Part shown: in pieces, positions 15,063-43,543 of the stretch | Position numbering within the stretch: the first letter of the stretch is position 1 | How the letters are laid out: each line of letters opens with the position of its first letter | Assembly (NCBI GenBank): GCA_945863885.1 | Contig: CAMAZY010000013.1 | Span: 1-64,000, forward strand | Direction: 5' to 3' | Length of the DNA stretch: 64,000 bases | Source of the DNA: an uncultured Clostridia bacterium | GTDB taxonomy: Bacteria; Bacillota; Clostridia; Oscillospirales; Acutalibacteraceae | The notes under the pieces: model-generated | Databases searched by the model: none | What the model was told of the DNA's origin: nothing | The model's input: the letters and a program-made list of their open reading frames with translations, nothing else | Position numbers and translations under genes: made by a program

Positions 15063-15236
15063 TTGAAATGCTGACAACGGAATGTTATACTACCTATAGT
15101 TATAGGTGTCTTTATGGGGTGAATTGTACCCTTTTTGAAATTTCTGCCGGCGCTTTCGGGCGTTTCGGCTGTGTTTCGGTATTATATAGGGACGACCTAT
15201 TGGTAATATATACTTCATTCTAAGGAGGAAACTTTC
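15063..15236 (+). promoter_or_regulatory. Promoter and leader of the 9396-residue gene
   Basis: TTGAAA (15063-15068) and TATACT (15086-15091) with a 17-bp spacer; the start would be near 15098. The roughly 140-nt leader contains TGTACCCTT (15125-15133), GTTTCGGCTG (15162-15171) and CTAAGGAGGAAA, the same ordered elements as the leader at 6044-6165. GCCGGCG...CGGC and CGCTTTCGGGCG can form a nested hairpin just before the second element. Confidence 0.55.
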
Positions 15237-18200
15237 ATGAAACTTGGAAAGAAAGCTTTGAGTTGCGTGTTAGCTATCATGATGATAGTCTCCAGTGTTT
15301 CTGTCTGCTTCAGCGTCTTGGGCGCAACAGACACACCGGACGGCATTTTCACGCAAATCGAAATGCACTATGAAGGTCTCATGGACGCTATCGACAAAGC
15401 GAAGGACACAACCAATCCGGACACGTCGGGAGTACCTACACTCTCGGGCTCCGTCTGGGCGGTTGAAAAGGATACCTTTACCGGCGGCTGGCAGGCTGTC
15501 GCAAAGGCGTTCGCCTCTTTCGCAAAAGGTACGGCAGGTGTAAATAATACCTATGCTGACCTTGTAGCGGACATCAAGAACGACATCCCGGCAAGAGCCG
15601 CGTCAAGCGGACTTCCGCAGGCGGATTATGAAGCAATCGTCGATTACTTCAAATTCGGCAACGAGTCGACCGAATCTTTCGGTACGCCGGCGAAGGTTCA
15701 GCTTGCAATCGGCAGTGGCTTTGATCTGCTCGGCTGGAAAACGGTTGAGGAGATCGATACGGCGAGATCGTATTATATCGCTACGCTGACGATGACACCG
15801 TCAGGCTCAAACGGTACATACACGCTTGCTTCGGCGGACTGTATCAAGTTCTCTCAGGAGGACTATATCATTGCGTCCGGTAATAACGATATCACCGCAA
15901 TCAAGGACGTTCTGACTACATGCGTTGATGCGAACAAGTTCAGCAAATGGTTCACACAGAGCTCGATGACAACGGCAGAGCTCGGTGAGTTCTCGAACCT
16001 GTATAACTTCTTCACAGACACGATTGCCCTTTCCGGCTACGGTTATACGGCTGAGGAAGTGTGGAATCACTATGTCGCAAAACGTGTCGGTAAGACTTAT
16101 ACAGAAGCTGATGCATGGTATAACACCTCCGGTGCGGACGCAGAAGCAAGACCGCTTGCGCAGGATTATATCACCAAGCTTGATGCTCTGATGGTAATCG
16201 ACTATTCGGCTATGACAGCTGAGGAGCTTCTCGCTCACTACAACGCTGTTGTCGGCGTCCGTCAGGCGATCAACGAAGAAACATTCAGCGGTCCGATCAA
16301 GAAGATCATGAACGAGCTGAAGGCCTCCGACTATATCGGTCAGAAGACCTCCACCGTTGAAACCTATATTCAGGCTTTGGGACTTGAGGTCGCCAAGGCT
16401 TATGCCGCTGTGTACGCTGATGAGCTTGTAGCCCTCGCTAAGGAAGTCACCGATGGTCTTGTTCCGACTTATGACCGTTCCGACGAAGCTGCGGCGAAAG
16501 CATGGGAAAATTCTGAGGATCAGAAAAAGGCTCAGAACTGGCTCGACAGAGCAACCGTCCTCAAGGGCAACATTGACTCCCTCGTTCTCGCAAAGGCGAC
16601 GTTTGCGGACGTTCAGCTTGTTGAATCTGCAAACGGCAACCGTCTGACCGAGGCTGACTATAATACCGTTGTCAATCAGATGAAGATCACCACCGTTGAC
16701 TGCGGCGGTTCCGATGCGTTCGCCAACAAGACCGCAATGGATACCTTCATGAAGACAACGATCCTTGCCGGTAAGCGTTTCACGAAGCTTCAGGCCGACG
16801 CCGAAGAATTCAGAATTCTTTATAACAAAGCACTCGCTCTGAAGAACGACGCAAGTAAGGAGCTTATCTTCGCCGAAGTATACCCGAACGGACTTGATGA
16901 ATATGCCGCATACCTGAACGGCATCAAGGCCGCTGCAGCTGAGAGAATTTATAATCAATTGCGTACCATCGAAAAGTACCAAAAAGAAGGCGGCGGAATT
17001 AAATACTTTAACTTCGAGTCTATTATCCAAGCCTGGGAAGACATCGAGGTTGCAAGCGTTGCCGCACTTTGTTCTTTCCTTGACGCTGACCCGGCTTATG
17101 TTCCGACAACGGAGCAGGTGAAGGTTGCTGACATCCAGACCCTCTGGAACAAGTGTCAGACCTGGTACAATCAGGCTCTTTCCTTCAGGACCGGTCTTAA
17201 CAACCTGAAAAATCAGGCTTATAATGGCACAGGAGCAACAGCTGCTAACAAGGACACAAGAGTTCTTATGTACCTGTTGCAACAGTCATCATCATCTTCT
17301 TACGGCTGGGAAACCGTTGTGGGCCAGCTAAATTATGATGACATTCAGAAGTTCGTAAATGACATCGAACTGAAGCAGGGCACGAAGCTTAAGCTTGAAA
17401 AGATTCGTGAGCTCATGGATGACGCAGTTAAAGACTTCGATAGAATGCTTATTTCCGATGACCTCGGAACCCTCCTTAAATCGATAACAGAAGCGACTGA
17501 TGAAGACGGTAATGTTACCAACATGTTTGGTGTATGGAAGTATAACTATACATTCAACAATCCCGGTGGTACTACTACAACTGTTAAAAAAGGTGACGAA
17601 GTTAAGAATCTTCGTGAATTCCTGATTTGTACGATTGTTAATCTCCTTTATTCGGGAGATCTTCAAACCATGCTTTTCAAGCTGGTTAACGGTGCTCTTG
17701 GTTCGGTCCTTTATAACCTCGATCTCGGTGACAGTATGCCGGGAGCAGTAACCGGTTTCCCCTTGAATTTGGGCGATGAATGGAACTTCTTACCGGAGGC
17801 TCTCAGAGCTGCCATTCCGACTATGCCCCATTGGTTTACTGAAAACTGGAACGGAAATTCAAGAGGTCAAAGCGGCGTACAATGGAAACAGTGGTTTACC
17901 GGTGAAGCATACGGAAATTCCCGCTACGACTATACTGCAATTCTGAAAGTTCTTGAACAAGCACCAATCTATGGATCAGGTTCAAGCAGTCAGTCTTATT
18001 GGAAAGACAATGACGGTGCGAAAAGGCAAGGAACATCCGGTATCCCCGAATCCGCATGGGAAGCTTTAGACAGCACTGCTGCATGGCACATCGAAAACGA
18101 TGATGATTTATATCATTCTTTGGCTACTGTTTTTTGCGGTTTAGCGGTTCCTCTTGCTACAATCATAACCGGCGATACAAAATCTGTTGAAACAAGACTT

Positions 18201-21200
18201 CTTAACCTTGATGCTACCATTTATAATAATGGCGATGCACTTTATGACCGCCTGTTTATCCCCTTGTATCGTCTTTTAGGAATCAATCCGAGAAGCTACG
18301 ATTCAAAGGGTGGATTCTATTCAGGAACTGACATTAAAAATGCCTGTCCGTATGATATTAACTGGAAAGGTGAAACGGTTGGTATTACTCCTGATGGCGG
18401 TGTTACTTTCTGGAAGATGTTGATTTCACCGATCATTTATTGGTTGAACAACAAACTGTTTGTTAATCCGATTGAGACGATTCTTGAGATTCTTCCGAAT
18501 CTCCTGACCGCTCTTGATGACAACCAGATTTTACCGAAGCTTAAAAATCTTGCTCTTAAGCTCGAAATCAAGCCTCTTGGTATTTCCATTAAATTCGATC
18601 TTAATCTTACTGATATTCTTGTTCCGGTTCTTAACGATATCGGTCTTACAGATGCAGCTATGGAAGGCGGCATCAACGGCCTTCTTAAGGTTCTTTTGAC
18701 AGGTACCAGAGTGACCGGAAAACCGTCCGCAGCGGATATTGAAGCCGGTGGATGGCTGATGAAGGTCACTGAGCTTGCAGACGGAACGAAAGAAACCAGC
18801 ACAACCGAAGCCGCTGTTGTCAATATCGGCGGTACAAATTACTATATCAAAGCATGTGGTTTACTCACGCAAACGCTCTACTCTGCACTCGGAGACGGAT
18901 TGTTTAATTGGTTTACTTGGACCAATAATGTCGGTACAATTCCGCTTCAGATTCCGGTTAACCGCTTTATGGCAACCGGTACCCTCATGGGGGGAGCGCA
19001 CCCGAATTCACAGTCTCTGGTAATCCAAGGCTGTCAGAAGACTATCACAAACTACCACATCTACACCGACCCCGGCGATACGCTTCTGACGCTCTTCAGA
19101 TGGCTTCTTGACGACGGCACGATCTATGTGATTTCTCCGCTTCTTGAAGGCATGATCCCGGCGAAAGATGACGGTTCGTCCGTCCTCGACACTGTCTTCC
19201 AGATTGTTGACGGTCAGGCCGACACACTTCTCGGCATCCTCATCTGCTTGCTGAATGCATATAGCATTGACTTTACGGCGTACAAAGACCCGGCACGCAA
19301 CCCGGCCATATGGGGTAAAAATAACGCCGAGGGTACGGATTTCAAGTCATACCTGAATACCGATTACAGCACGAAATTCCAGGTCGGCAAATTCCTTCAG
19401 GAAACCCTTTGCGCAAAGAATACAGCTGTAACCGACCCGAACACTGCGACAACGGCAGATATGATTGCCAAGGCTGACCTTGCCATCGCAAACCTTGACG
19501 TTGTTATCGGCAAGCTTGTTCCGACCCTCGTTTCGCTTCTCGGCGACACACTGAGAGGTCTTGGCCTTGGTATGGAAGAAGTTATCACCAAGGTTGAAAA
19601 CGGCGAACTGACAACAATTAAAGACATCGTTGTCCAGGGCGTTGTCGGAAATGACCTTGTTGATATGCTCATGAAGCTTCTCTTCGGTACGAAGGAGCAG
19701 AAGGTAAATACTGCCGAAGACGGCACAACTACACCTGAAGTGGACGCAAACGGCAACCCCGTAATCGACAATGGTCTTTTAGGCAGTCTTTTAGGCGACC
19801 CCAACAGCATTATTGTTAAGCTTCTTGACGCTCTTGCCACCTTCGGTATTGACATTACACCGCTCGGTTTCTATAACTGCGCAATTGGAACAACATCATC
19901 AAAGAACGGTCAGATCGCTGCATGGCTCAACCGTCAGGCAGCTAACCATCAGAGCACTGATCCGAACTATCTCAAGAACAACGCCGGCAGCCATAAGCTG
20001 ATGAGCGACAACGCCGCAAAGGCAGAGCTTGCCAAGATGACATGGGCTGATATCGGTGTTGAAGCCGGCTTCGGCTGGTTCACCGAGGACGCCGACGCAT
20101 CGAAGAGACTTGATAACTTCATCGAGCTTGTCTGCGACTTTATCGGCCCCTTAAATCCGCTTCTTGGCTTCCTTCTTTCCGGCCAGAACATCACCCTTAT
20201 GGATGAGCTTACTCTCCAGGGTAACAACGGCTACTCCAAGGCGGTTGTTCCCATCCTTGAAGCGCTCGGCCTTGACAGCGCCTGCGTATATCAGAAGCAG
20301 TTCGACGCTTATGTATACTGCGGTACGGATCTGAACACGGATATTATGAGCTTACCGTCTGTAACAGACCCGAACCAGCTTGCAGGCAGTGCAAGACTTG
20401 CTACCACCAAGAATTCTCCGCTTCGTCCGCTCATGAATGCGATTAAGACGCTTCTTCTCGGCGACGGAACAAACAAGGGTCTTCTTGAAGCTCCTGTAAC
20501 CGTTCTTCTGTCGAAGCTTCCGAATATCGCTTACTTTATGTACATGTACAAGACCGACGACGGAAAGAGAACTTCGAACCTCTCCGTTGCGGTTCAGAAC
20601 TTCATCGCTCCGATTCTCAAGCTTCTCGAAATCGTTGACCCGATTCTTTCAAGAGTTATCGTTCTCGACCTTGAAGAAACACTCAACAACATCCTTGACT
20701 TTGAGACGCTGATCAATACGTTGCTCGGACGTCTTGTCGGCGACGGCGCAACCTTCAACCTTGACCTTCTCGACTTCGGCACCCTTGCGGCGAACTCCTC
20801 GCTGAGAGCGAACATCAACGCTCCGACATACAGAGGCAACGTCGGTGACAAGTTCACCAAGTTCGAAGCTTCTCCCGGACAGTTCTTCATCACTCTCATG
20901 AGATCGGCAGCTTCGAAGGAGATTATCGACGCTCTTGCCGGAGTTATCAACGGACTGTTCACCAAGAATCCGGCCAAGGATCAGGCTGAAGTTGAATCCC
21001 GTGAGAGAATCAACAACATTATCAAGATTATCTCCACGAACCTTTGTAAGCCGGTTACCGATGCTGACGCAAACGGCGCTCAGTATATCGACATTCTTTC
21101 CGGTCTTCTGATCGACGTGCTCACAGACTATGAGCCCGCCGACGGTGAGTTCTACTTCTATGAAGTCCTCAACCGCATTGACAATCAGCTCATTACTGAC

Positions 21201-24200
21201 GTTGAACAGACTACCGCATGGACTGACTATGCCATCGACCACGAGGGCTATGATTGGAATGCAACGGCCGATAAGTTCACCGAAGCCGAAGTGAACGCCG
21301 CAATCGAAAACCTCGACTATGTTATCAAGCAGGCAGTTCCCGACGTCCTTTCCGCTCTTTCCGAAGAGGGAATGCTCAACCTCGGCGGCATGCAGTTTGA
21401 TTTCGAGGCCGGAGACGGTCTGTGGACTCTTCTTCAGAACATCATCAGCGAAAATCTCTTCACTGACAACATCTTTGATACCGTAGTCAATCTTCTTTGC
21501 GGTGCTCTTGGTAAGTCCGGTTCGAATGAAACCACATCGATGCTTGCAAACGTCCTTAAGGCGGCCGGCTTCGATATGACTTACAACGCTTTCCTGTATA
21601 ACAAGGACGGCAGCAAGACCACCTTCTATGACTACATGACCTACGGCTTCGATAAGGACGCTGACGGCAACCTTATCAAGGCAACCGATACCAATAAGCC
21701 CGATATGTATCAGATCGACGGTAAGACAGTCGAAATGACATGGGCACAGATCTATAAGAACCACAGCTATATCGCTTATGAGTTCGACAAAGACGGCAAC
21801 CTTGTCACCAACACGGACGGTACACCGAAGCTTCTTCAGGCTACGACGACCAACGACAAGGGCGAGGAAGTTCCGGCTGTTGACGCTAACGGTAACCCGA
21901 TCTATGTCCGCGAGCTTCGCAAGACCGGCGCTGTTCAGCTTCAGGACGCAAGCGGCAACTATCTGTACACCTACACCGACGAAAACGGTGACGAGCAGAC
22001 CTATGCTTCTCAGTATGATCAGCTCAAGATCTACACCATCGGCACAGGTGCAGATGCCAAGACCTATAAGCTCACGGCTAAGTACGACGAAACCGCCGCT
22101 AAGGATTGGGCATGGGGTATGGATACCGTAACAGGTGCCGATGCCAACGAAACCTATTACAACAAGAAGAACAAGATGATTGAAGTCATCTGGTCAATGC
22201 TGACTCCGTTTGCTCCTGTCTTCTCGGCACTCTTTGCCGGCGACGCTCTCAAGCTCTTCGAGGGTATCAACATCGAGGGCAACACCGCTTACGAAAACGT
22301 TCTTCTTCCGCTTCTTCGTGCTTTCGGCTTCGAAGAAACCATCAAGTATCTTTCCACAACTCCGAGTGAGGTTGACGGTAAGACCAAGCTTGATCTTATC
22401 AACGATGCAAGACCGGAGGGTGAAAAGATCCCCGCAACCTTCATGAGTGTTGAAGAATATTACACCCTCGTTTACGGCGACGCCGCAGGTCCGGAATCCG
22501 GCAATGCTATGTCCGCAGAGGGCATGGGCAAGGCCGTTGCGACCATGGCAAACTATGTCTTCAACTTCGTCGAAGTTGTTGCTACCTACCCGATTCAGAC
22601 AATCATGACAGCGCTTCCGACTCTCGCCTACTTTATTTACGGCGACGGTCTGACCACGCTTGTCTCGAACGTTCTCGTTCCGATTACCACGCTCACCGAC
22701 CGTCTTGAGCCGATTGTGAAGCTTGACATCAACAACATCGGCGCAGGTCTTCTTGACGCGCTTTCAACCGGCAACTGGGCAAACTTCCAGAACGCTCTTC
22801 AGACTTATGTCTCTGTTGACGAAGAAACCGGTGAAATTATCGTAAACGAGACACAGCAGTTTTCACTCACCGACTCAATCCTTAACCTTCTCGGCAGTCT
22901 TGAATTCGATCTTTCGAGCGTACTCGGTAAGAACGATGACAAGATTGAAGAGGGCGAGTACAAGTACGGACTGATGCTCTTTATCAACAAGGAAGTTGAA
23001 GTCCGTGCCAAGGAGCTTCTTGCAACAGCCAACAAGCTTGAAAAAGAAGACGCAACCGCGAACAGAGAGGCTGTTGAACAGCTTCGTGCGGAAGCGAGAA
23101 ATCTCCGCGGCGGCACACTCAAGGGCTTCTTCAAATCCATCGCTGCTCTCGGTACTTCCTACGGCGCACTCGGTGAAACCGCACCGAACGGCGGAAAGAG
23201 CACCAATGTTAAGGTTAATAACTTCGGCCAGGTAACCGTAAGTAAGGCAGAAGTACTGATGTTCCTTCTCAACTTTGCTTTCGACAACCTTGCTCTCAAG
23301 CAGACCGTCGGCAGTCTTCTTGGTTACGACCTTACCGATGAAAACACCGACGAAGCCGAAATGCTCGACGAAATCATCACCAACGTATTCAATAACCCCG
23401 AAGCTCTCGTTGACCTCGTCGTTGAGCTTCTGACAAGCCATGATATTACCAAAGGTATCGAAATCGACCTGATGGAAATCGAGGCTGAAACTCACTATGA
23501 CTTCTACGAGGATGCCGGCTTTGAAAGCCACGAAGAGGTTCTCGAAGCAATCAAGAACGGTGAAGATGTCTCTGAAATTTCGAGAATGAAGACCGCTGCT
23601 GCTATCGACAACCTTGACAGCCTTGTCGGAACCATTCTCAACCTCTTCAAGGAAAACCTTATCACAGAGGGCAGCTTCTTCGAGAAGATCGGTCTGACGA
23701 AAGACAGCGACCTTACTCTCAAGGCTGTAGTTGACGCTCTCTTCGAGCAGTATCTCTACACCGATAAGGGTCTTAACGAAATCATGGGTATGCTCATCAG
23801 CACGCTCGGTGCCGAGGGCTCCTCACAGATTATCAACGTTGTTCTCAAGATTCTTGACGGCGCCGGCTACTCGCTGACTCCGCAGACCTTCAAGAAGAAC
23901 CTGCCGCAGCTTTCCGGTGTTATCGGCGACGCTAAGAAGTGGTCTGAGGTTGCCAAGAACAACGCTCAGTACAAATATGCTGTCAAGGATGATAAGGGCA
24001 ACACCATCGAAACCCTTTACAGCGCAACACAAGGTGAAACCGCAATTGACGGCAAGGCTGTTGTTCCTGTTATGATTCAGGAACAGGAAGTCAAGACTGC
24101 CGCTGACGGCACAAAGACCTATGTTTACACTTACACCGTAGGTGAAGGTGACGCCGCTGTTGTCACGGAAATTGAACTCGACAAGGCCGGCGAAACCACA

Positions 24201-36200: not shown

Positions 36201-39200
36201 AAGACCATCAATGACCTTCTCGGTATCGACCTTAGCCCGACAAACTTCGCAACCGCAACCGGTTACAACAAGCTGATCGACTATGTAGCTGTTACCGCTT
36301 CCGATGCAAAGATCGGTGTAACATGGGCTGACGTTCTCGCCGCTCACGCAACAAAGGACGAGAATGGCAACTACACCTTCGACGAGTACGCATGGGGCGT
36401 AACCGATAAGGATACCTTCGTCAGCGCACTTCTTAAGCTTCTTCTCCCGCTTGAAAAGCTTCTCGGCTTCATTCTCTGCGGCGAAGACCTCACCTTCAAC
36501 ATCGAAGGCATCATGCTTAAGGGCGGCAACGCATTCAACAACGCTCTCAACCCGCTCTTCAAGGCTCTCGGTCTTGAACAGTTCGGCGGCGAGCTGAGAA
36601 CTGCCGCAACCGGCAACGATGCACTCAAGTATGTCATTGAATACCTGTTCGTATTCGTTGACGCAATCGGCGAAGCTCCGCTTACAACGATTCTTACCGT
36701 TGTCGGCAACCTGAGCTACTTCATCGCTAACGACAACCTTGAACCGCTTATCAGAAACCTGACGGCTCCGATCCTCGGTATCCTCGAGCTTGCGAACTCC
36801 GTAATCTCCATGGATCAGATTGACGGACTCATCAGCGGTCTGACTAAGGGTGCGATCACGCTCACCGGCATTATTGAAATCGGCAACAACTCCGGTGCAA
36901 ACCTTGTTGAAATGATCAATAAGCTGATCGGCGGCATCGAAATCAAGGATGAAAATGAAAACGTCATCTACACGCTTAAGGCTCTTCCGGAGGACTTCTT
37001 CGTTGAATTCTCCAAGTATGTAATCGACGTTACCGATCCGACCGCTCCGAATAAGGGCGACGACGTTAACACATGGACAGTAGACGTAGCAGACGGTCTG
37101 ATGTATATCCTTGCAACCGTACTCGACGAAGACTTCCTGAAGACAATCTTCAGCAAGGTCGGCGTTAATACAAGCGAAGGCATCGGCTCAACGCTTCTGA
37201 CACTCGCTGACAAGGAATATGATCTGGCAGACGTCATCATCATGCTCCTGAACGATTACAGCATCTCCTATAAGAGAATTAAGCAGGCTGACCTCGGTAT
37301 AGCAACGGCTCCGTACTACGGCGCACTCAACCATGACAACACAACCAACGCAATCAAGGCTCTCGATCCGCTTCTTGTAAGCGTACTCGGAATGCTCGGC
37401 GTCGGCGACCTGAAGACCCTCATCGACGGACTTGTCAGCGGCGCAGACCTCGGCAACCTTCTGATGAACCTGCTCGTTCCGGCTCTCGCCGGTCTCGACC
37501 TTGATGCAATCCTCTCCTATGTCAACGAACTGACCAACCTCGGTATTTCGAGTCTTGCTCCGTCGGTATTCGCGAACGATAAGTTCGGCTCACAGCTGAA
37601 GAACTTCATCAACGCTTCCGACGTAAACGGCGACGGCACGATCACTTGGGCTGAAGTTGAGGAAACCTATTCACAGTATGTCTACACCTACACCGACGAA
37701 AACGGCAACAGCGTTGAATACTTCTCCGTAAACGCTGACGAAACCACCGTAACCATCGGCGAGGGCGAAAACGCTAAGACATACGAACTTACCAACAAAT
37801 ATGAACAGGCCGTTGACGCTGAAGGCAACCCGGTCTACGAGGCTGACGGCACAACACCTGTTTACGACACAACCAAACCGCTTAAGAAGATGCACAGCAC
37901 CTTCGACTGGAAGATTTCCACGAAGGAAGACCTTGTCAACTTCGCCTGCGAGCTCCTCGCTCCGCTCGACGTTGTATTCCAGATCCTCCTTTGCGGCAGA
38001 CAGATCGTCGCTCTTGAGGATAAGGAAGTTCTCAGAAGAGCTGACATCAGAATTAACGGCGGTTACGGTTACAACTACGCGGTACTTCCGCTTCTCGAAG
38101 CCTTCGGTGCTGACCCGCTGACGCAGGTTCAGTACGAATCGAGAGTAAAGACTGACGGCTCGTCACTTAAGTACATCTTTGACGTTCTCTTCACAGAGGT
38201 TGACGAAATCCTCGCAACACCTGTAAACGAACTGATGAGCAGACTTGCCAACATCTTCTACTTCATCGGCTCCGACGGAATCAACACCATCGCTGAAAAC
38301 CTTCTTGCTCCGATCAACACCCTGATCGCTGAAGTTGACGATGTATATCCGATCGCAATCCGTATCGACCTTGCGGCTGAAAAGATTGTTGACACTTACA
38401 TCGGCGTCGCTCACGACGGTATCCCCGACGGAATCAGCATCAATGTTTCCGGTGAAGCACTTGCAGCCTTCATCAATAAGGCAATCGGCAATCTCAACAT
38501 CAACGGCACAGAGATCAAGCTTTCACTCGACCTCGACTGGAACGCTCTTGCCGCGAAGATGGCCAAGAAGAACGCCGACGGCAGCATCATCACCATCGGA
38601 ACCAAGCAGGCTTACACGTACGGTGTATGTGAAGCAGGCGCAGACCTTAAGAATATCTCCGGCGATCCGGCAGATGCTCTTGTAACACTTCTTGATACTG
38701 CTCTCACACCGGAAAACAGCGAAAACATCAAGAACCTCGTTGAGGGACTCCTGAAGGATGTAAACCTTGACGAAAACATCAAGAATATCGTTAACGACAT
38801 TCTCAACGACCCGAACGCAATCAAGAACCTTGTTGCCTCTGTCGTACTGATCCTCACCGGCTCCTACGACGTCAATGTACTCGACTACGTTTACAAGTTC
38901 CTCGGCGCTGTTGACTTTAACAACATCGACGGCCTCGACGATGCAATCGTAAGCCTTGACAAGGTACTCAACAAGGCGGCTCCGGTAGTCATCACCATGC
39001 TTGCAGACACCTCGAAGCCTGAAAATGAGTGGACACTCCTCGAGAAGATTGCCAAGGGCATCGAAGGTAAGGCAGACGCAGACCTGAGTGATATCGTAGA
39101 TTATCTCCTCGGCTCGATGGTCTTCACCGACGATATGATGGCAACGATCACAAGCGCACTTGTTAAGGCTCTCGGCGGCTTCCTGACCGCAGACCTTGCC

Positions 39201-42200
39201 AATACGCTCAACAACCTTCTCGGCGTAAACCTTGCTCCGACTGCATTCGCAGCGGCAACAGGCAACGCACAGCTTATCGCTTATGTAAACGTTACTCCGG
39301 CTGACGCAGAAGCAGGCGTAACATGGGCAGACGTTCTCAAGGCTCACAGCCACGACACAGGCGACAAGAACGAAAACGGCGAAGCAATCATCAAGATCGA
39401 TCCGGTATTCACCGGCGTTGACAGCAAGGATGCATTCGTAAGCACCGTTCTCGATCTCCTTAAGCCGCTTGAAAGCGTACTTGCCTTCCTGCTCACCGGC
39501 AAGGATCTTACAATCAGCGTTGATGAATCCACAAGTCTCAGCCTCAAGGGCGGCAACGCTTACGAGACCGCACTTGTACCGCTGATTATCACAGGCCTTG
39601 GCCTTAAGGATCTCGGTGTAGCAAAGAAAGACGCGGCTTCCGCGAACCAGGCAGTTGAAAATGTTCTCGATTACGTATTCGCTCTCGTTAACAACGTATG
39701 TGCGGCTCCGTTCACGACGATCCTTACGGTTGTCGGCAACCTGAGCTTCTTCATCGCCAACAACGACGTCGAAGTAGCAATCCAGAACCTTGCAGCTCCT
39801 GTACTCGGTATCCTCGATGCACTTGACGACGTCATCTCGAGAGATCAGATCGACGGACTTCTCAAGGGCTTCATCGGTATGGGTCTGAGCGACATCATCG
39901 GCATCGCAGGCAATAAGGGCGAAGCTCTTGTCACCCTGATCAACGACCTCCTGAGCAAGATCGAGATTAAGGACGCTGAGACCGGCGAAGTAGTCTATGT
40001 TGTCAAGGCTCTCCCGACCAACTTCTTCGAAGAACTTGCCAAGGCAGCCGTCAAGATCGACGCTCCGACCGGCGCTCTTACCGTCGGCCAGGATGTCACC
40101 AAGTGGCACGTTGAAAACGGCGACACGCTGATGTATGTACTTGACACGGTTCTTACAAGAGACTTCCTGAATATCCTTTGCTCAACGCTGAAGCTCGACA
40201 CGACCTCCACAGTCGGAGAAATCATTCTCTCACTTGACGGAAAGAGTGAAGACGTTGCAAAGATCCTCATCAAGCTTCTTAAGAAGTATCTCGTAGAGTA
40301 CAAGGTTTATACACAGCCGCAGCTTGAAAAGATTGAAGTAACCTACTCAAGCGCTAAGTCACATGAACAGCTCAACGATGCTCTCATGAACCTTGACTCC
40401 ATTATCCCGGTTGTTCTTGGCTTCATCGGCGACGGCAGCAACTCCAGCCTTAAGGATATCGTTTACCCGCTGTTCGTTAAGGACGACATCGCAAACCTTC
40501 TTGTCTCCTCGATTGCGAAGCTTCTCTCCGGACTTCCGGCAGAAACAATCGATCAGGTCATGGGTTATGTACACGAACTTACAAATCTGACTGACCTTGA
40601 CATTAACCCGCAGGCCTTCACGGCAACCAAGTTCGGCTCCAAGCTTGCTGATTACATCGGCACTGCTTCCACATGGGCTGAAGTTTGGGAAGCACACAGT
40701 GAAGAAACCACCGCTGAAGACGGAACTGTAACAAGAACCGCAACAGCCTACGATTGGGGCATTACCTCAACCGCAGACCTTGTAAACCTTGTCTGTGATA
40801 TGCTTCTTCCGCTCGACGGTGTTCTGGCTCTCCTTCTTATGGGCGGAACAGACAGAGCAACCTTCGAAAAGACCGGCGTTCACAACGGCAGCAAGATTAC
40901 AGCCTTTGAGGACATCAATGTCATCGGCGGCAACGGCTACAACTACGCAATCATTCCGGTTCTTGAGCTCCTCGGCATCAACGCCAAGACTCAGGCTGAA
41001 TATGAAGCCTACGTTGCAGCAAACCACGGCAGCACTCTCAAGTACATCCTTGACGCTGTCTTCGCAAAGGTAGACGAGATTCTCGACAAGCCGATCGCCA
41101 ATGTTCTTCCGATTCTTGCAAACCTCTGCTATGTAATCGGCAACGACAACCTTGAGACGATCGTTCAGAACCTCATCGCTCCTGTCAACAACCTTCTCGA
41201 AGCTGTTGACCCGATCTTCCCGATCGCCATCAACATCAACCTCGGCAACATCGGCACCGACAAGTCGATCGTAGAAACCTACATCGGCAAGTCACACGCA
41301 GGCGTTGACGCAGGCGTACAGATCACCGTTAAGGGCAGCGACCTTGCAGTACTTCTCAACAATGTACTCTCGGGCATCATGATTAACGGTAAGCCACTCG
41401 GTATCGCCCTCGAACTTGACTGGCTCAAGCTTGCGGCAACCGCAGCAGCCAACAACGACGGCGACAAGTATATCGACATGACCGGCTCCTCGATGAGCAC
41501 GAAGTACGATATCTACAACGGTGCTGACTATCAGAACGTTGTCGGAGATCCGGCTGACACCTTCGTAACCCTCATTAAGCTTATCCTTACTCAGGAGAAC
41601 TACGAGAAGCTTCTCGAGGTACTCGGCAAGCCTGACGGCTTCGGCGAACCGCTTGATTCTCTCATCGAGCAGATCATCAAGGATCCGACCAAGCTTATCG
41701 ACATCATCGTTGATCTGATCGGCGGCGGCGACGTTTCCTACATCCCCGTCCAGAACAGACCGATCAAGCTCAAGAAGTTCGATTACTCGTCATACCTGAT
41801 GCTCACAGAGCCGAACGCAGACATCATCGCGAACAACCTTGATGATCTCATCATGAAGATTCTTGCCAAGACCGACTTCGGTTCACTCAAGGGTCTCCTT
41901 GGCCAGAAGTACATCAACAATGCGACGATCAACCTTCTTCTTGATAAGCTCGTACCGCTTCTCGGCGGCTCAACGGTAGCAAATATTCTTAACGTTGTTA
42001 AGGGCATGAGCACCGAAGAAACTGACCTTGACTTCACCGTTCAGGGCTACTACGCTAAGTTCATCGACAACTACGATTACTACACCGATACCTCCAAGTA
42101 TCAGGCAGGCAACGTATTCCTGAACAACGGCGCAGCACTCCTCAAGGCGGCTGCAACCAAGGAAGGCGGAACATGGGCTGATGTCGGCTCCTTCGCAGGC

Positions 42201-43427
42201 ACCGACTGGGGCTTCAAGGACGGCGACATCCAGGGCTTCCTGAGAGTTCTCACCGACGTTCTGACTCCGCTCAACTCCGTACTTGAGCTTCTCCTCATGG
42301 GCGAAGGCAAGAATCTCAACATCCTTGACATCGTCAAGATCGGCGGCGGCAACGGCTACGATTACGGTATTATCCCGATTCTCGAAGCTTTCGGTCTCAC
42401 CGCTGAAGAGGTTCTGACCTACAACGAGTACAAGGCTCTTTGTGAAAAGGATCATACTCAGGTAATCGGTTACGTACTTACCAAGATCGGTGTATTTGCT
42501 GAAAGACTTCTTGACAGACCTGTCGATGTTCTTACAACAATTCTTCCGAACGTTGCGTACTTCATCTCCAACGAAGGCGTATACCTTGCAGTAAGAAATA
42601 TCGTAGCACCTGTCTTCTCGATCCTTGAGCTTGTCGGAAACGCTTATAACATTGACTTCGTAAACATGCTCAATGTTTCCAAGCTTCTCCACAACATCAA
42701 CATCAACATCCAGGTACTCGGCCAGAAGTATGGCTTCAAGATTCCTGAAATTGACTTCTATAAGCTTGCTCAGGAGGGCGGCACTTCAACCAAGGAAGTT
42801 GCAACCTCACGTTCGTACTCCGCTAACTCCTTCACGACACCGACAGATCCGTTCCCGTACATCAACGATTACGGTACCGGCAAGTATGACGGTTGGGCTA
42901 ACAAGTCAACGCAGACCTTCATCGTATCCGATAAGGGCGACACGCTGACACTTGTTCTGACCTGGGCTCTTGAAATGTTCGGCGACAAGGAGAACCGTGC
43001 AGCACTCGTTGACTGGCTCGCAGATGTATTCATGCTCCAGAGCGGTGCTAAGCAGACCGTAGCCTACGGCATCGACAAGATGTTCGATACCTGCTCGAAG
43101 TATGATGTACCCGACATCATCGTCGCAGCACTCTTCCAGGCTCTCGGCATTGCAATTCAGGTTGACGCAGCCTTCACCGGCGACATGAACAAGATCCAGA
43201 AGATTTATCAGGAAATCTTCGACGCACTCGGTTCGAATGACACCTGCATCTACGGCAGCATCGCTCAGGTAATGGAAGAAATCACCGGTACATGGAACGA
43301 TACCATCGGTGACCACGACGATTACCATGAAGCTGTTGATGAAGCAGAACAGTCACTCAACTGGTTCCAGAGACTTCTTGCTAAGATCAAGGCCTTCTTC
43401 CAGAAGATCTTCTCAGTCTTCAAGTAA
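15237..43427 (+). CDS. Giant secreted repeat protein, 9396 residues
   Basis: One unbroken frame of 28,191 bp encodes a protein of roughly 1 MDa (estimated from length). The Sec signal is MKLGKKALS followed by a hydrophobic core and cleavage near residue 30 (SVLGA). Residues about 30-1590 form a largely non-repetitive, helix-rich region with more A+T-rich, less biased codons in parts. Residues about 1600-9160 are 14 copies of one module. Each has a Leu/Ile-rich helical part, a 'TWA(D/E)V' motif, often a Tyr/Asp-rich beta-like linker (YTYTDADG..VTYY), 'WGV.D.D.F', 'PL.P.L..LL.G', 'GGNGYNYAIIPLLEA(F/L)G', then 'YFI..DG......NLIAP'. The last residues (WFQRLLAKIKAFFQKIFSVFK minus one) form a basic aromatic amphipathic helix. 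No catalytic domain, LPXTG, SLH or C-terminal dockerin is visible. I do not recognise the family; a giant adhesin, stalk or envelope scaffold is the natural guess. Double terminators follow. Confidence 0.93.
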   Translation: MKLGKKALSCVLAIMMIVSSVSVCFSVLGATDTPDGIFTQIEMHYEGLMDAIDKAKDTTNPDTSGVPTLSGSVWAVEKDTFTGGWQAVAKAFASFAKGTAGVNNTYADLVADIKNDIPARAASSGLPQADYEAIVDYFKFGNESTESFGTPAKVQLAIGSGFDLLGWKTVEEIDTARSYYIATLTMTPSGSNGTYTLASADCIKFSQEDYIIASGNNDITAIKDVLTTCVDANKFSKWFTQSSMTTAELGEFSNLYNFFTDTIALSGYGYTAEEVWNHYVAKRVGKTYTEADAWYNTSGADAEARPLAQDYITKLDALMVIDYSAMTAEELLAHYNAVVGVRQAINEETFSGPIKKIMNELKASDYIGQKTSTVETYIQALGLEVAKAYAAVYADELVALAKEVTDGLVPTYDRSDEAAAKAWENSEDQKKAQNWLDRATVLKGNIDSLVLAKATFADVQLVESANGNRLTEADYNTVVNQMKITTVDCGGSDAFANKTAMDTFMKTTILAGKRFTKLQADAEEFRILYNKALALKNDASKELIFAEVYPNGLDEYAAYLNGIKAAAAERIYNQLRTIEKYQKEGGGIKYFNFESIIQAWEDIEVASVAALCSFLDADPAYVPTTEQVKVADIQTLWNKCQTWYNQALSFRTGLNNLKNQAYNGTGATAANKDTRVLMYLLQQSSSSSYGWETVVGQLNYDDIQKFVNDIELKQGTKLKLEKIRELMDDAVKDFDRMLISDDLGTLLKSITEATDEDGNVTNMFGVWKYNYTFNNPGGTTTTVKKGDEVKNLREFLICTIVNLLYSGDLQTMLFKLVNGALGSVLYNLDLGDSMPGAVTGFPLNLGDEWNFLPEALRAAIPTMPHWFTENWNGNSRGQSGVQWKQWFTGEAYGNSRYDYTAILKVLEQAPIYGSGSSSQSYWKDNDGAKRQGTSGIPESAWEALDSTAAWHIENDDDLYHSLATVFCGLAVPLATIITGDTKSVETRLLNLDATIYNNGDALYDRLFIPLYRLLGINPRSYDSKGGFYSGTDIKNACPYDINWKGETVGITPDGGVTFWKMLISPIIYWLNNKLFVNPIETILEILPNLLTALDDNQILPKLKNLALKLEIKPLGISIKFDLNLTDILVPVLNDIGLTDAAMEGGINGLLKVLLTGTRVTGKPSAADIEAGGWLMKVTELADGTKETSTTEAAVVNIGGTNYYIKACGLLTQTLYSALGDGLFNWFTWTNNVGTIPLQIPVNRFMATGTLMGGAHPNSQSLVIQGCQKTITNYHIYTDPGDTLLTLFRWLLDDGTIYVISPLLEGMIPAKDDGSSVLDTVFQIVDGQADTLLGILICLLNAYSIDFTAYKDPARNPAIWGKNNAEGTDFKSYLNTDYSTKFQVGKFLQETLCAKNTAVTDPNTATTADMIAKADLAIANLDVVIGKLVPTLVSLLGDTLRGLGLGMEEVITKVENGELTTIKDIVVQGVVGNDLVDMLMKLLFGTKEQKVNTAEDGTTTPEVDANGNPVIDNGLLGSLLGDPNSIIVKLLDALATFGIDITPLGFYNCAIGTTSSKNGQIAAWLNRQAANHQSTDPNYLKNNAGSHKLMSDNAAKAELAKMTWADIGVEAGFGWFTEDADASKRLDNFIELVCDFIGPLNPLLGFLLSGQNITLMDELTLQGNNGYSKAVVPILEALGLDSACVYQKQFDAYVYCGTDLNTDIMSLPSVTDPNQLAGSARLATTKNSPLRPLMNAIKTLLLGDGTNKGLLEAPVTVLLSKLPNIAYFMYMYKTDDGKRTSNLSVAVQNFIAPILKLLEIVDPILSRVIVLDLEETLNNILDFETLINTLLGRLVGDGATFNLDLLDFGTLAANSSLRANINAPTYRGNVGDKFTKFEASPGQFFITLMRSAASKEIIDALAGVINGLFTKNPAKDQAEVESRERINNIIKIISTNLCKPVTDADANGAQYIDILSGLLIDVLTDYEPADGEFYFYEVLNRIDNQLITDVEQTTAWTDYAIDHEGYDWNATADKFTEAEVNAAIENLDYVIKQAVPDVLSALSEEGMLNLGGMQFDFEAGDGLWTLLQNIISENLFTDNIFDTVVNLLCGALGKSGSNETTSMLANVLKAAGFDMTYNAFLYNKDGSKTTFYDYMTYGFDKDADGNLIKATDTNKPDMYQIDGKTVEMTWAQIYKNHSYIAYEFDKDGNLVTNTDGTPKLLQATTTNDKGEEVPAVDANGNPIYVRELRKTGAVQLQDASGNYLYTYTDENGDEQTYASQYDQLKIYTIGTGADAKTYKLTAKYDETAAKDWAWGMDTVTGADANETYYNKKNKMIEVIWSMLTPFAPVFSALFAGDALKLFEGINIEGNTAYENVLLPLLRAFGFEETIKYLSTTPSEVDGKTKLDLINDARPEGEKIPATFMSVEEYYTLVYGDAAGPESGNAMSAEGMGKAVATMANYVFNFVEVVATYPIQTIMTALPTLAYFIYGDGLTTLVSNVLVPITTLTDRLEPIVKLDINNIGAGLLDALSTGNWANFQNALQTYVSVDEETGEIIVNETQQFSLTDSILNLLGSLEFDLSSVLGKNDDKIEEGEYKYGLMLFINKEVEVRAKELLATANKLEKEDATANREAVEQLRAEARNLRGGTLKGFFKSIAALGTSYGALGETAPNGGKSTNVKVNNFGQVTVSKAEVLMFLLNFAFDNLALKQTVGSLLGYDLTDENTDEAEMLDEIITNVFNNPEALVDLVVELLTSHDITKGIEIDLMEIEAETHYDFYEDAGFESHEEVLEAIKNGEDVSEISRMKTAAAIDNLDSLVGTILNLFKENLITEGSFFEKIGLTKDSDLTLKAVVDALFEQYLYTDKGLNEIMGMLISTLGAEGSSQIINVVLKILDGAGYSLTPQTFKKNLPQLSGVIGDAKKWSEVAKNNAQYKYAVKDDKGNTIETLYSATQGETAIDGKAVVPVMIQEQEVKTAADGTKTYVYTYTVGEGDAAVVTEIELDKAGETTWTDSEGTAHVLSAKMVDTAKQETGVVINVSWNVTDRDSFVALIWDMIKPLSGIFEAFLAGGTLVIYDKVNISGTNGYESVILPVIENLAINKLTNTDGTPYLAEVKTYADYKALIDDADPSNDSIMLTSITDALFALIDSVCDRPVSTLATIIPYLARFLESNGLDALISNILVPVTTILTKVEPIYDLDLLKTIKDLLRDLVKKMNAQEGATTESMDPAQQATPGASAAAYALNVIEDTEAQANDNTTIAQRLLAPSALADDTVEQDYYFIDIIWQLLDSIKINGTAIGDMVSDTLFVDLASCAWLPAAAEGEKGSDISIVTIDADGRGGNISYAEATEYTVDRETVLLKVLEWVVFTDGIRDLLGGLLNINFDMAALTEEDSNYLITVLLYGIFQDPEAAERLVIDLLSWYEVEYQPVRTKADYSDLSTATPIDYEGRGIDKSQLEQLPEKLDTLVAGIIPVVVGLLPEGALGNIKITGSNMEEILHNLVVDLLKGDDKNAGLGNKLIAMLVKLIGSNDSIGSILPMLKELTVTDTNTTGVDLTLKYFKQSSAALNTVFADCETWADAYEAFKVKVKYVAPENPAPDYVAPLTDADGYLLATDADGKAIPVYATDKDGNKIQATDNGTMKDGYYITAGDGNPVENAYVVKSVDGNVVYEYQYDVEFTGNNNIFDINSYEDVLAILGDILTPLVPILRLLLTEDNLVILDGVTITAGDGYDRFIIPLFEALGIDNIIDKNEFRALDDGAFCDKVISYIDALLAKIVSSPVQTIVDALPQLVFFIYSEGLAQSIEQLVAPLITLVDMVNDITAKKVEAEGKEFVALDIYGMILDIVNEKVMTPNDIAPVDSVYGLINSFLTAEGLEALLKKIIDKKNTETGGDLEADLGFQINGLFKMIIEKCCVVTDVKTVRYFGATETTGGRTVKGVQTNAADTIMQIIADTILGGDMIKSLLTTFGVEVNDTVTTILDAITGENKDVIIKVLLNYFFNYDVETMLLEYLSFDKIEYAYETYVDGTKLTQRKLRRSIKKLDGSIMNAIPNLIPMLEENPTFAAILNKIGGYSGQSLKDLVHEIIEVYAFNDQMMSTIVGLLIGLLGGEQLSGTLATVLPLVKDLVAGLDLTPAGFAQSTTSTVLADYINAAIAAQPADIVTDENGDPVLDENGDAKTTPHEATWADIANYYSYYEYYYYVTTAKTAEVEKTDADGNVIKDAEGNPVKETVTTYEQEKVTMYSKDDSLHGTAVAGVDGKTWFGYEQATDANGKLLWDDEANGIPTAKQATKTDEAGNTVPETDAEGNPVYVRSERINALNGDELFDWGIDKATGFENKKSAFVNVLAGVVVPLEPVVNFLLRGEDINLAGALPLKGNNGYENALYPLLQGLAVDQFGTLVTPEQYNAAKGTNVTLTAITDALFVVVDTLCEKPVEFLLTLLPSLSYFIASNGVQLFLNNLLAPVIALLDVAEPVAGTLIEDLIGKALGETLKPYMPEGTGRIVTEEVTAEDGTVTTKEYTAYTIDEITGIAGESGENLVKILNKLLSGLLVKTPEGEEAQIISILPETVFADYPEHAININAATGTDKYYYWYQDGDKLVKIADEDYNYTIHGDIKKSRYVVDHFSVDIADSLVFLLDTVLSDDLLNVLVDLMGLDLTSDTDMLSIIIKHLIDGNMNGLVVSDILHKLFENYDVTYAKLNGLLIPLDHYDFTKVDVDDAAAKAEKIPTQLDNIIDEAIPVLAPIVKQLMSESRQKAYEEAKKTDPNAKLAEPNVLESAFAKVESGDINADLTAVVDSILGELLFNNDTVTKVVRLLPTVYAIDIINIIFTICTYGDYKMDPQGYLAQIDKNYAADDKAVIAMHKIIGNVNTWKEVAANNTDPSETEKLPALDFGVTDYESFKHALCVALHPMFPILQLFTQGKKLTLFSYTGERYVPVNLVEKDGTVVIDDSRDGTELGNGYLEVVGSNSYEQAIMPLLDALGVYEKHGDWDAANKTGLMSQDQFNEIANIEDLLEYLLDIIFNLVHDVAKDPFQFLSRNLASLLYYLGNDNLYYLGDTFIGTVNNLLAIVDPLYIEGGIRVPVTMLKLEDTGSQKGLLSTINDMLANANIDFKLTKDMIFKLAGKMGDYKVIDTLRTTADYALINNEGKYVDKDGNLLTEADIAAGGRKITTLVGVDRYFFTGLIDFVCADGLLGKFIDTSTMNAIVADIINNVTGPESVENVIEIALKILNKYLVQYKAIEEPGTALVKQFINYADSVADKKRSVTKAETEKAIANIDAAVAPILKLVGVGTIEDLLNQYLYTDDIVNMLVSLLVGLLGGMDADTWKTVEDVLGYVKDVIGIDIQISPAYYATVSSELAGFIGDCTTWAQVAEKYTKYAYTYDTGKTDAEGKAITATIYLANADLDGQEYDVDPADDVTDNKVLTKAVTTTYKYTYTIPADPDVEGATDETVTVWLDKTGETEYKVGETTYTLTAVLDDADKQVSESKRVTKVESDYVWGVSDAATTAEKTDKLVKIVCDLLKPFNPILELLLCGGVYGSTGTTFGDSIGVFKEINLMGGSGYNYAIIPLFEAFGLEADEIKSQADYEATVTANGPLSYILKTILTTVNNELNTPLSFVLDFIANLAYTVSKNGLTTIVSNLIAPVNELVKAVEGVIPVSINVDLVGLLDGTGVAKLYLGNEVKVHNAEVGIKVNLDSASLEEAVKKVIMKFIPALELEFRTKDIAEMAAAVDADGNIIYTDSVVDPKWDVCLGTPGKNIQGDKADTILAVLDMVVTSENIQALLDLLKVDMSTLDPALVDLINKVIDNPTEVIDAVIKLLSGSYEIAPVLVEFAFRFLGEEKYSYKDELGEWKSTTTKSIGKLDKIINNAIPGVLKLLATGDKPIAFIKDLYDGLGAAAETATIKTIVDYLLETMAFNDDMVNKLLGLIVGGLGGLDETTVNLIQDLVKEIAGIDLTPKGIIAKTTKIQAYLNTFTASDTEKGLTWADIAKACTKYAYTYVTGQDAEGKDITETYYGAKDLTSAEIDGKTVELTPVYKTTTDKDGNTVTTDVQETAVILDNTWGVHDKDTFLAIFYELTGIFAPLLDFLFRGKEFPILGNDDLALKGNRGYENAIIPLAKALGIELTTTNCDNFTDANAMLDEVIDGIFGLVDDIQTAPISTILEVLGSASFFLANNGVEAVISNLISPVTALLEVVSGIVSSEDIDGLLTHFIKISLTDIKTIAGAKGEKLVSLINGLIGDVEIVGPDGIAKMVNLLPEDFFVQLSKYGIKVHDVPKPDVDEITTNWSVDKTDVLMYLLQTVFTDDTLAIICKVAGLDTNEQVASIVKGLAGKQDEVVEIITKLLNEYKVTYNKIAQQNITKIDVTPKDPLTDTNINNALTAIDKLIPTVLGLVMGDGATLETVITDLLKNADLGNLVMNMLVPVLAGLDIDKILDIVKDFTNISLDIAPSAFKSDFGSQLKNFINGKTTWAEVEEAYSQYVYTYTDADGKEVTYYAASATETSVTIGEGENAKTYALTNKYEQKIGEDGKPVFEADGETPVYDTTKPLKTMHSTFDWQLEDFDDITALVCDLLAPLDIVFQVILSGKEIVAIPDTDTTDGTVDQIQISGGYGYNYAIIPLLEAFGVTPITQAEYDAQLATNGSLKYILDEIFGFVSELCNAPIDTLLSRLANLFYFIGSDGINTVVKNLIAPVNELAKEIDDVFPIAITIDLKKVGIAGESVLATYLGKEHPGVAAGVTINVAAADLANLLNSLIDEIKIGENVINLALDLDWNKIAAMMAKTANEAEKNTTGAELLKIDSKQDYTYGVIDDADADIPAYKNITGDKVDTFITLLQVILTADNTEGIAKLIKSLIPESLDPTIAEIVYDVLNDPDSIEKLIGVVVLVLSGEYNVNDSRDFIYKFLGALDFDYAKMDDFDTAIEKFDNMVSRAAPMIVGMLGDPTKPEADQSILDKLAAGVTADMTLDQFINWALNEFLFKESSFDTIMQALVKILGENVTADLTKTINDLLGIDLSPTNFATATGYNKLIDYVAVTASDAKIGVTWADVLAAHATKDENGNYTFDEYAWGVTDKDTFVSALLKLLLPLEKLLGFILCGEDLTFNIEGIMLKGGNAFNNALNPLFKALGLEQFGGELRTAATGNDALKYVIEYLFVFVDAIGEAPLTTILTVVGNLSYFIANDNLEPLIRNLTAPILGILELANSVISMDQIDGLISGLTKGAITLTGIIEIGNNSGANLVEMINKLIGGIEIKDENENVIYTLKALPEDFFVEFSKYVIDVTDPTAPNKGDDVNTWTVDVADGLMYILATVLDEDFLKTIFSKVGVNTSEGIGSTLLTLADKEYDLADVIIMLLNDYSISYKRIKQADLGIATAPYYGALNHDNTTNAIKALDPLLVSVLGMLGVGDLKTLIDGLVSGADLGNLLMNLLVPALAGLDLDAILSYVNELTNLGISSLAPSVFANDKFGSQLKNFINASDVNGDGTITWAEVEETYSQYVYTYTDENGNSVEYFSVNADETTVTIGEGENAKTYELTNKYEQAVDAEGNPVYEADGTTPVYDTTKPLKKMHSTFDWKISTKEDLVNFACELLAPLDVVFQILLCGRQIVALEDKEVLRRADIRINGGYGYNYAVLPLLEAFGADPLTQVQYESRVKTDGSSLKYIFDVLFTEVDEILATPVNELMSRLANIFYFIGSDGINTIAENLLAPINTLIAEVDDVYPIAIRIDLAAEKIVDTYIGVAHDGIPDGISINVSGEALAAFINKAIGNLNINGTEIKLSLDLDWNALAAKMAKKNADGSIITIGTKQAYTYGVCEAGADLKNISGDPADALVTLLDTALTPENSENIKNLVEGLLKDVNLDENIKNIVNDILNDPNAIKNLVASVVLILTGSYDVNVLDYVYKFLGAVDFNNIDGLDDAIVSLDKVLNKAAPVVITMLADTSKPENEWTLLEKIAKGIEGKADADLSDIVDYLLGSMVFTDDMMATITSALVKALGGFLTADLANTLNNLLGVNLAPTAFAAATGNAQLIAYVNVTPADAEAGVTWADVLKAHSHDTGDKNENGEAIIKIDPVFTGVDSKDAFVSTVLDLLKPLESVLAFLLTGKDLTISVDESTSLSLKGGNAYETALVPLIITGLGLKDLGVAKKDAASANQAVENVLDYVFALVNNVCAAPFTTILTVVGNLSFFIANNDVEVAIQNLAAPVLGILDALDDVISRDQIDGLLKGFIGMGLSDIIGIAGNKGEALVTLINDLLSKIEIKDAETGEVVYVVKALPTNFFEELAKAAVKIDAPTGALTVGQDVTKWHVENGDTLMYVLDTVLTRDFLNILCSTLKLDTTSTVGEIILSLDGKSEDVAKILIKLLKKYLVEYKVYTQPQLEKIEVTYSSAKSHEQLNDALMNLDSIIPVVLGFIGDGSNSSLKDIVYPLFVKDDIANLLVSSIAKLLSGLPAETIDQVMGYVHELTNLTDLDINPQAFTATKFGSKLADYIGTASTWAEVWEAHSEETTAEDGTVTRTATAYDWGITSTADLVNLVCDMLLPLDGVLALLLMGGTDRATFEKTGVHNGSKITAFEDINVIGGNGYNYAIIPVLELLGINAKTQAEYEAYVAANHGSTLKYILDAVFAKVDEILDKPIANVLPILANLCYVIGNDNLETIVQNLIAPVNNLLEAVDPIFPIAININLGNIGTDKSIVETYIGKSHAGVDAGVQITVKGSDLAVLLNNVLSGIMINGKPLGIALELDWLKLAATAAANNDGDKYIDMTGSSMSTKYDIYNGADYQNVVGDPADTFVTLIKLILTQENYEKLLEVLGKPDGFGEPLDSLIEQIIKDPTKLIDIIVDLIGGGDVSYIPVQNRPIKLKKFDYSSYLMLTEPNADIIANNLDDLIMKILAKTDFGSLKGLLGQKYINNATINLLLDKLVPLLGGSTVANILNVVKGMSTEETDLDFTVQGYYAKFIDNYDYYTDTSKYQAGNVFLNNGAALLKAAATKEGGTWADVGSFAGTDWGFKDGDIQGFLRVLTDVLTPLNSVLELLLMGEGKNLNILDIVKIGGGNGYDYGIIPILEAFGLTAEEVLTYNEYKALCEKDHTQVIGYVLTKIGVFAERLLDRPVDVLTTILPNVAYFISNEGVYLAVRNIVAPVFSILELVGNAYNIDFVNMLNVSKLLHNININIQVLGQKYGFKIPEIDFYKLAQEGGTSTKEVATSRSYSANSFTTPTDPFPYINDYGTGKYDGWANKSTQTFIVSDKGDTLTLVLTWALEMFGDKENRAALVDWLADVFMLQSGAKQTVAYGIDKMFDTCSKYDVPDIIVAALFQALGIAIQVDAAFTGDMNKIQKIYQEIFDALGSNDTCIYGSIAQVMEEITGTWNDTIGDHDDYHEAVDEAEQSLNWFQRLLAKIKAFFQKIFSVFK
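34554..40631 (+). repeat. Two-module higher-order repeat (about 3.03 kb period)
   Basis: In the C-terminal half, modules alternate between type A (GGxGYNYAIIP, with PIAI.IDL and a following 'HxGVxxGVxI' segment) and type B (GGNAF/Y..AL.P, with 'IAG.KGE.LV.LIN.L'). Anchoring on TTCGGCT codons before TWAEV gives 34554, 37584 and 40632, so units of 3030 and 3048 bp. The first two copies are very similar around FGSQLKNFIN, YSQYVYTYTD and MHSTFDW, even at DNA level. Copies further upstream are more diverged. This implies duplication of module pairs after the module itself had already been multiplied. Confidence 0.75.
37620..37655 (+). other. Single canonical EF-hand loop in module 11
   Basis: Residues 7462-7473 read DVNGDGTITWAE, which fits the 12-residue EF-hand/dockerin calcium loop D-x-N-x-D-G-x-I-x-x-x-E exactly. 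The sister module at about 34594 has NGKTTWAE in the same place, so a short insertion completed the loop here. It is a single loop without a second EF-hand or dockerin partner helix. Confidence 0.6.
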
Positions 43428-43447
43428 GAACCAATCCTAATAACAAT

Positions 43448-43485
43448 AGGGCTGTTGCAGTAAGCAACAGCCCTGTGTTTCTTTT
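43448..43485 (+). terminator. Terminator of the giant gene
   Basis: AGGGCTGTTGC (43448-43458), loop AGTAA, GCAACAGCCCT (43464-43474) is a perfect 11-bp stem followed by GTGTTTCTTTT, 20 bp after the stop codon. Confidence 0.9.
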
Positions 43486-43491
43486 CATCGA

Positions 43492-43528: not shown

Positions 43529-43543
43529 TATTGAATTTCAGTA

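Follow-up and report, generated by a model that had tools for sequence, protein, structure and literature searches.

A giant modular protein encoded by a single 28-kb gene and its relatives in a lineage of uncultured Clostridia

The giant gene and its neighbourhood

The window, as we call the whole stretch of 64,000 nucleotides that was analysed, contains a single gene of 28,191 bp (15237..43427, + strand) that runs from ATG to TAA and encodes a protein of 9396 aa, with a mass estimated at about 1 MDa. Its frame has no internal stop in 9396 codons, compared to about 424 stops expected in as many random codons of the same composition and 69 to 763 in the remaining five reading frames of this DNA, in agreement with the intact 28,191-bp frame of the original prediction. 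The G+C content by codon position (0.56/0.35/0.59) is typical of a coding gene. The strong ribosome binding site that had been claimed was recognised by eye as AGGAGG at 15223..15228 (+), 8 nt 5' of the ATG. Sigma-70-like sites are present, with a possible TTGAAA-17-TATACT at 15063..15091 (+) that was weak in the site scan; with four sites found upstream of the gene compared to a mean of 1.6 in shuffles, the good promoter claimed before is only plausible. Likewise, one of the two consecutive terminators claimed before was recovered by the terminator scan, as a hairpin at 43446..43476 (+) that was listed once on each strand (two sites 3' of the gene compared to 0.1 in shuffles); the other corresponds to a palindrome at about 43490-43535 that was seen by eye and is absent from the scan output. 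Two frames between the giant gene and efp, 43544-44011 and 44317-44739 (-), had no Pfam match at E <= 0.01, and no RNA families or tRNAs were found in the 64-kb window at the thresholds used.

The giant gene is flanked by the gene of a secreted protein of 2185 aa, ilvA and ridA on one side and by efp and mltG on the other. The 2185-aa protein (6166..12723, +) carries List_Bact_rpt (PF09479) according to Pfam as well as Cys-pair repeats, with an end that bears Cys pairs around IFRFFHKII. In the window, this partner gene is separated from the giant gene by ilvA and ridA; elsewhere, the two form a conserved pair: of the 13 genomes with enough upstream sequence, 11 have a long homologue of the partner upstream of the giant gene, and in the frame listing of these 11 this homologue was the last long frame before the giant gene on its strand. 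This count leaves out the giant frames of G030, G003 (the second one) and G011, which have too little upstream sequence. In G018 the partner homologue is split over two frames; a 3207-aa frame of G026 matches it in part, and no match was found in G033. A phage or plasmid origin was considered and rejected: the nearest flanking genes include parA, parB, serS, glyA, ilvA, ridA, efp and mltG, and neither viral contigs nor tblastn searches in phages and plasmids yielded a confirmed relative.

Module architecture and searches for known families

The protein begins with a Sec signal peptide (aa 1-30, 15237..15326, +; cleavage site estimated by eye) of the sequence MKLGKKALSCVLAIMMIVSSVSVCFSVLGA, which has close counterparts in the ten other giant frames that we read and substantiates the signal peptide of the original prediction. 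It is followed by a region of about 920 aa (aa 31-948, 15327..18080, +) with weak module traces at most, 14 full modules, each of about 490 aa, and a truncated one; a C-terminal region and a tail of 25 aa complete the protein. The module boundaries were derived from an iterated HMM (hmmsearch) and windowed BLAST of the giant protein, as the whole protein compared against itself by BLAST returned no rows. All on the + strand, modules 1 to 5 span 18081..19691, 20109..21800, 22161..24002, 24288..25997 and 26223..27824, modules 6 to 10 span 28149..29816, 29847..31355, 31674..33209, 33366..34658 and 34854..36371, and modules 11 to 14 span 36390..37709, 37905..39380, 39414..40724 and 40752..42122; module 15 (42228..42698) comprises the first part of a module, and the region before the tail (42699..43349) is kept in orthologues. 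Since all 14 full modules and the truncated one were matched by hmmsearch at E 5e-38 or better, the repeat module proved to be real. Identity to module 10 is 20-49% among the remaining modules, and the linkers separating the modules vary in length and sequence. The module stretch (8206 aa) is apolar and very acidic, with 31% ILVF, a GRAVY of +0.09 and a net charge of -593. An EF-hand-like loop, DVNGDGTITWAE, is located at the end of module 11 (about 37596-37661, aa 7454-7475), where Pfam EF-hand_1 reaches only E 0.09.

As far as tested, the module belongs to no described family, as had been stated before. With the protein scanned in three pieces, no match exceeded the cut-off in Pfam-A (best HYR_4C, 17.2 bits compared to 27) or in NCBIfam (best PqqD_rel_WgkC, 12.5 compared to 110), and phmmer found no PDB sequence match at E <= 1 for the last 3396 aa. 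The module profile matched 51 residues of an HP0242 chimera in the PDB (E 3e-4, 23 bits), a match that we take to be due to chance or composition because natural HP0242 scores only 0.39. Following the suggestion to predict the structure of modules, modules 10 and 11 were folded jointly and gave a mostly helical model. In Foldseek, neither this model nor that of the C-terminus had a match with E <= 0.001; the rows contained helical membrane proteins, karyopherins, BAR domains and others at commonplace scores, none of which stood out. For predicted models, such a missing match may not be taken as proof of a new fold. The claimed lack of enzyme, sortase, SLH or dockerin signals was also confirmed, with no SLH, dockerin or enzyme domain in the giant protein at E <= 1 in Pfam and, by eye, no sortase signal (LPXTG-like motif, hydrophobic stretch and positive tail) at the C-termini of 11 giant proteins.

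Conservation, transporter-linked relatives and the C-terminal tail

The profile search against clostridial genomes that had been proposed revealed relatives throughout the genus. Among 59 genomes, the module matched 34/34 of the genus (own genome included), one of two from other genera of the family and none of 23 from other families. In a wider sample of the order, it was found in 5 of 394 genomes: our own, three that belong to a single sister genus, and G100, a genome from another family that is 75% complete with 5% contamination; in the phylum sample, it was found in one of 398, our own. All 27 named loci derive from metagenome-assembled genomes, whose labels are Oscillospiraceae, Ruminococcus, Ruminococcaceae, Clostridiaceae or Clostridia; many locus titles mention the gut of goat, sheep, cattle, buffalo or roe deer, and one has 'Lapin'. 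Of the 33 other genus genomes, 20 had a strong best module match (E < 1e-85) and 13 a weaker one (about 1e-53 to 1e-30). In these 13 genomes, only small relatives may be present, and the giant gene would be either dispensable in the genus or missed there through incomplete assemblies. At least 16 frames over 8,000 aa (8.3-11.6 kaa) were found, spread over at least 15 of these 33 genomes; that of G011 lies near a contig end. G003 has two giant genes, with frames of 10190 and 10014 aa (L056-L059). The matching frames of G020, G021 and G027 are short and spread over several contigs, which we read as probable assembly breaks.

For comparison, we read ten giant frames from nine genomes, which makes 11 proteins together with that of the window. 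All 11 have closely similar signal peptides and some form of the tail. The best matches of the window modules run from 1 to 15 in order in three of the ten frames (G030, G007 and G002), whereas the strict order is broken at some position in the other seven, most in G033 and G026, where 20 and 19 stretches were matched, respectively. A tree built from five giant proteins placed each of the 14 window modules nearest to the same-numbered module of G030 or G007. Judging from this tree, the modules form one family, and their positions had become distinct before the compared species split. Modules 10 and 12 also lie close together in it, so that some exchange or late duplication among modules has occurred as well. 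Compared to the nearest relative (L070), dN/dS was 0.087 and dS 0.30 over 1573 codons, which cover the C-terminal sixth only; strong selection, as implied by the original prediction, is thereby corroborated. Because the size class recurs across the genus with module order kept and dN/dS is low, an artefact or decay is very unlikely, as predicted, and the giant gene is, on this comparative evidence, real, intact, conserved and under purifying selection where tested.

Besides the giant protein, our own genome encodes two module relatives, one of 2470 aa with an amphipathic end and one of 956 aa with two modules and a C-terminal transmembrane (TM) stretch. At E <= 1e-40, the two-module relative was detected in 32 of 34 genus genomes, the exceptions being G026 and G033, though both have the giant gene; loci were available for 30 of the 35 matches. 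In 29 of the 30 loci, only 4-17 nt separate the last sense codon of the relative from the start of an ABC-ATPase/FtsX gene, and in the remaining one the contig ends. This gene is a fused ABC-FtsX gene (PF00005 and PF02687; an example of the gene pair is L009, 336-5960), and its versions at these loci are 64-79% identical to our own one, which is itself among the 29. The two-module relative has a C-terminal TM stretch in 29 of 30 loci, the other being cut by the contig end, and an N-terminal signal in the two proteins that we read; no family of Pfam or NCBIfam matches it above the cut-off. Encoded next to the transporter gene and, by sequence, secreted and held at the membrane, it has the properties predicted for an extracytoplasmic partner of a MacB/FtsX ABC transporter. 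In sister genera, module proteins end in DTGD plus TM (L185, L186), TM (L188) or LPNTG plus TM (L213), and those of 2.5-2.9 kaa from G180, G333 and G399 have no visible anchor at the end. By these ends, several members of the module family are evidently built for retention at the cell surface. In three sister-genus genomes, the gene of the 2.5-2.9-kaa module protein adjoins a divergently oriented gene for another long secreted protein (L210, L211 and L212).

The giant protein itself ends in a cationic amphipathic tail of 25 aa (43350..43424, +). Seven tails had a hydrophobic moment of 0.59-0.78 and a net charge of +2 to +4, and the similar ends of the paralogue and two partners had moments of 0.55-0.70, compared to shuffle means of 0.22-0.31; the predicted tail helix is of low confidence (pLDDT about 35-44). 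The profile was built from 14 tails, all from the genus and hence biased toward it. At E <= 1e-3, it matched 31 of 33 other genus genomes and none of 25 genomes outside the genus, 14 of which were also matched at a looser E <= 0.5. In our own genome, the giant protein alone has a strong tail match, and the 2470-aa paralogue and the 2185-aa partner have similar amphipathic stretches at their ends. In the order sample, the profile matched 4 of 294 other genomes at E <= 1e-3; a frame ends near the match in G243 and G111, and no such frame end is shown in G090 and G300. The corresponding loci L215 (G243) and L216 (G111) represent tail-like C-termini in other families of the order, following a Pro- or Ser/Thr-rich stretch.

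The loci examined comprised 40 matches outside giant proteins, taken from the E-ranked list (seven genomes, part of those listed), and 29 given by the search. In all 69 loci (68 places), the tail match lies no more than 11 aa from the stop codon. By a crude rule, 33 of the 40 tail proteins have a signal peptide compared to 36 of 138 other frames; of the seven that failed, two are signal-like by eye and one is cut by the contig end. A first version of this rule was too loose, with 10 of 21 window genes positive, and was replaced by the stricter one. In many tail proteins, the tail is preceded by Pro/Thr/Glu-rich stretches. Among the other secreted proteins with the tail of the giant (L133-L172), two that were scanned match the model of HupY/LrrG leucine-rich-repeat (LRR) adhesins (NF047961) below the cut-off, whereas this model did not match the giant protein at E <= 1. 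Because it ends many unrelated secreted proteins of the genus, the tail looks like an envelope-targeting signal. Tail proteins share with sortase (LPXTG) substrates a signal peptide and a C-terminal signal, several of them also a Pro/Thr-rich linker, and the module has sister-genus relatives with LPNTG or DTGD; the tail of the giant differs in being, by its pattern, an amphipathic cationic helix that lacks both an LPXTG motif and a hydrophobic TM stretch. A role of the tail as a stand-in for missing sortases was ruled out, since sortases are present in 34/34 genus genomes; because they are kept, the tail would be an addition to the sortase system and no replacement.

Interpretation and alternatives

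The reading that we favour, tentatively, is that the giant protein is secreted and tethered to the envelope as a chain of about fifteen extracellular domains, diversified and mostly helical, which was amplified from an ABC-transporter partner and acts as a multi-site capture device or scaffold. The gene would have originated by tandem amplification of a transporter partner of the two-module type. The protein would be exported via Sec, and its cationic amphipathic C-terminal helix would fix it in the wall or on the outer side of the cytoplasmic membrane, so that the acidic chain would project outwards. Each module, having kept a surface of its own, could have its own binding site, so that the chain would serve as a multi-site capture or scaffold device or as a surface organiser. 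The two-module relative could present its ABC transporter with a ligand of the same kind or couple that ligand to ATP-driven movement; from the apolar modules, one may guess at a hydrophobic or peptide-like ligand. The partner of about 2200 aa probably works on the same surface as the giant protein. The envelope location, which was part of the original prediction, stands on indirect grounds: we call the giant an envelope protein because it has surface-anchored module relatives, with LPXTG-like or TM ends in sister genera, and a tail common to unrelated secreted proteins, in addition to its signal peptide.

MacB/FtsX-type action is, in known cases, transport, efflux or the control of wall hydrolases. 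The ABC-linked two-module relative suggests that the modules recognise something coupled to such action. According to the accessible parts of two publications (PMC7668044, PMC5985334), MacB/FtsX ABC transporters of type VII have extracytoplasmic partners, FtsEX-EnvC and others. The two-module relative resembles these systems in being encoded directly before a fused ABC-FtsX gene; it differs in lacking a Pfam or NCBIfam family, and the giant gene is not beside a transporter gene, with no MacB/FtsX ABC gene among the flanking frames scanned. A bolder version of our reading, which we regard as doubtful, is that the tail defines a new class of surface-sorting signal (neither sortase, SLH nor TM), a cationic amphipathic C-terminal helix, often following a Pro/Thr-rich linker, which pins many secreted proteins, including this chain of about 1 MDa, to the outer face of the membrane. 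The chain would then have a new fold and be the sensor or capture part, in amplified form, of a MacB/FtsX ABC system specific to the lineage.

The novelty of the protein, the other part of the claimed new class of giant envelope protein, does not lie in its size, as giant surface proteins are already known and longer proteins of Oscillospiraceae are in print. Giant proteins of more than 40,000 residues occur in Omnitrophota and gut Oscillospiraceae, as described in the accessible part of PMC13104272 (citing West-Roberts et al. 2023). The present proteins resemble them as very long single frames of uncultured gut Oscillospiraceae, and are set apart by that description: about 40,000 residues and numerous known domains are reported there, from human, mouse and rabbit gut, compared to 8-11.6 kaa and no recognised domain here. 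We recognised no published description of the module or the tail, in a search that missed most subscription papers and bioRxiv. What is new is the tail on unrelated secreted proteins, the two-module relative adjacent to an ABC gene and the conserved partner of about 2200 aa. Together, they concern a lineage-restricted family with no recognised domain, whose frame stays open over 28 kb across species known here only from metagenome assemblies. The family provides a route by which a giant protein could arise from a small one linked to a transporter, and the tail points to a possible, so far unrecognised way to hold secreted proteins at the cell surface.

The alternative that survives best, though we consider it rather unlikely, is a purely structural or adhesive surface fibre, in which repeats provide nothing but length and contacts to neighbours, mucus or fibre particles, while any specific ligand or ABC link has been lost. 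It is in line with surface proteins being, next to NRPS/PKS, one of the two main groups of large bacterial genes in the accessible part of PMC11573180, with the two tail-bearing proteins that approach the LRR adhesin model and with the herbivore gut as source of many named records. On the other hand, the same-numbered modules stay nearest to each other across species, beyond the needs of a mere spacer, and the small family member adjoins a transporter gene in 29/30 loci, both of which argue against a mere fibre.

It is improbable that the giant is a polyprotein, i.e. one secreted chain cut between modules into small domains with the tail retaining the last piece only. The variable inter-module linkers would fit such cuts, and others have suggested that extremely large proteins may be processed into smaller ones (PMC13104272, accessible part), but no protease match was obtained in the 19 flanking frames scanned. 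Bridge-like lipid transfer proteins of eukaryotes carry lipids along a groove, and the helical modules could be likened to them if they stacked into a hydrophobic conduit carrying lipids or other hydrophobic compounds across the wall. The apolar composition, the length and the family link to a MacB/FtsX-type transporter gene speak for such a conduit, which is nevertheless very unlikely given a two-module model that is mostly helical, with no beta groove and no fold match. An assembly fusion or a decaying gene, to which the purely metagenomic origin of the named loci and the fragmented frames of G020, G021 and G027 might point, has a negligible chance of being correct, as size class, module order, signal peptide and tail recur in assemblies of several projects and the dN/dS is that of a maintained gene.
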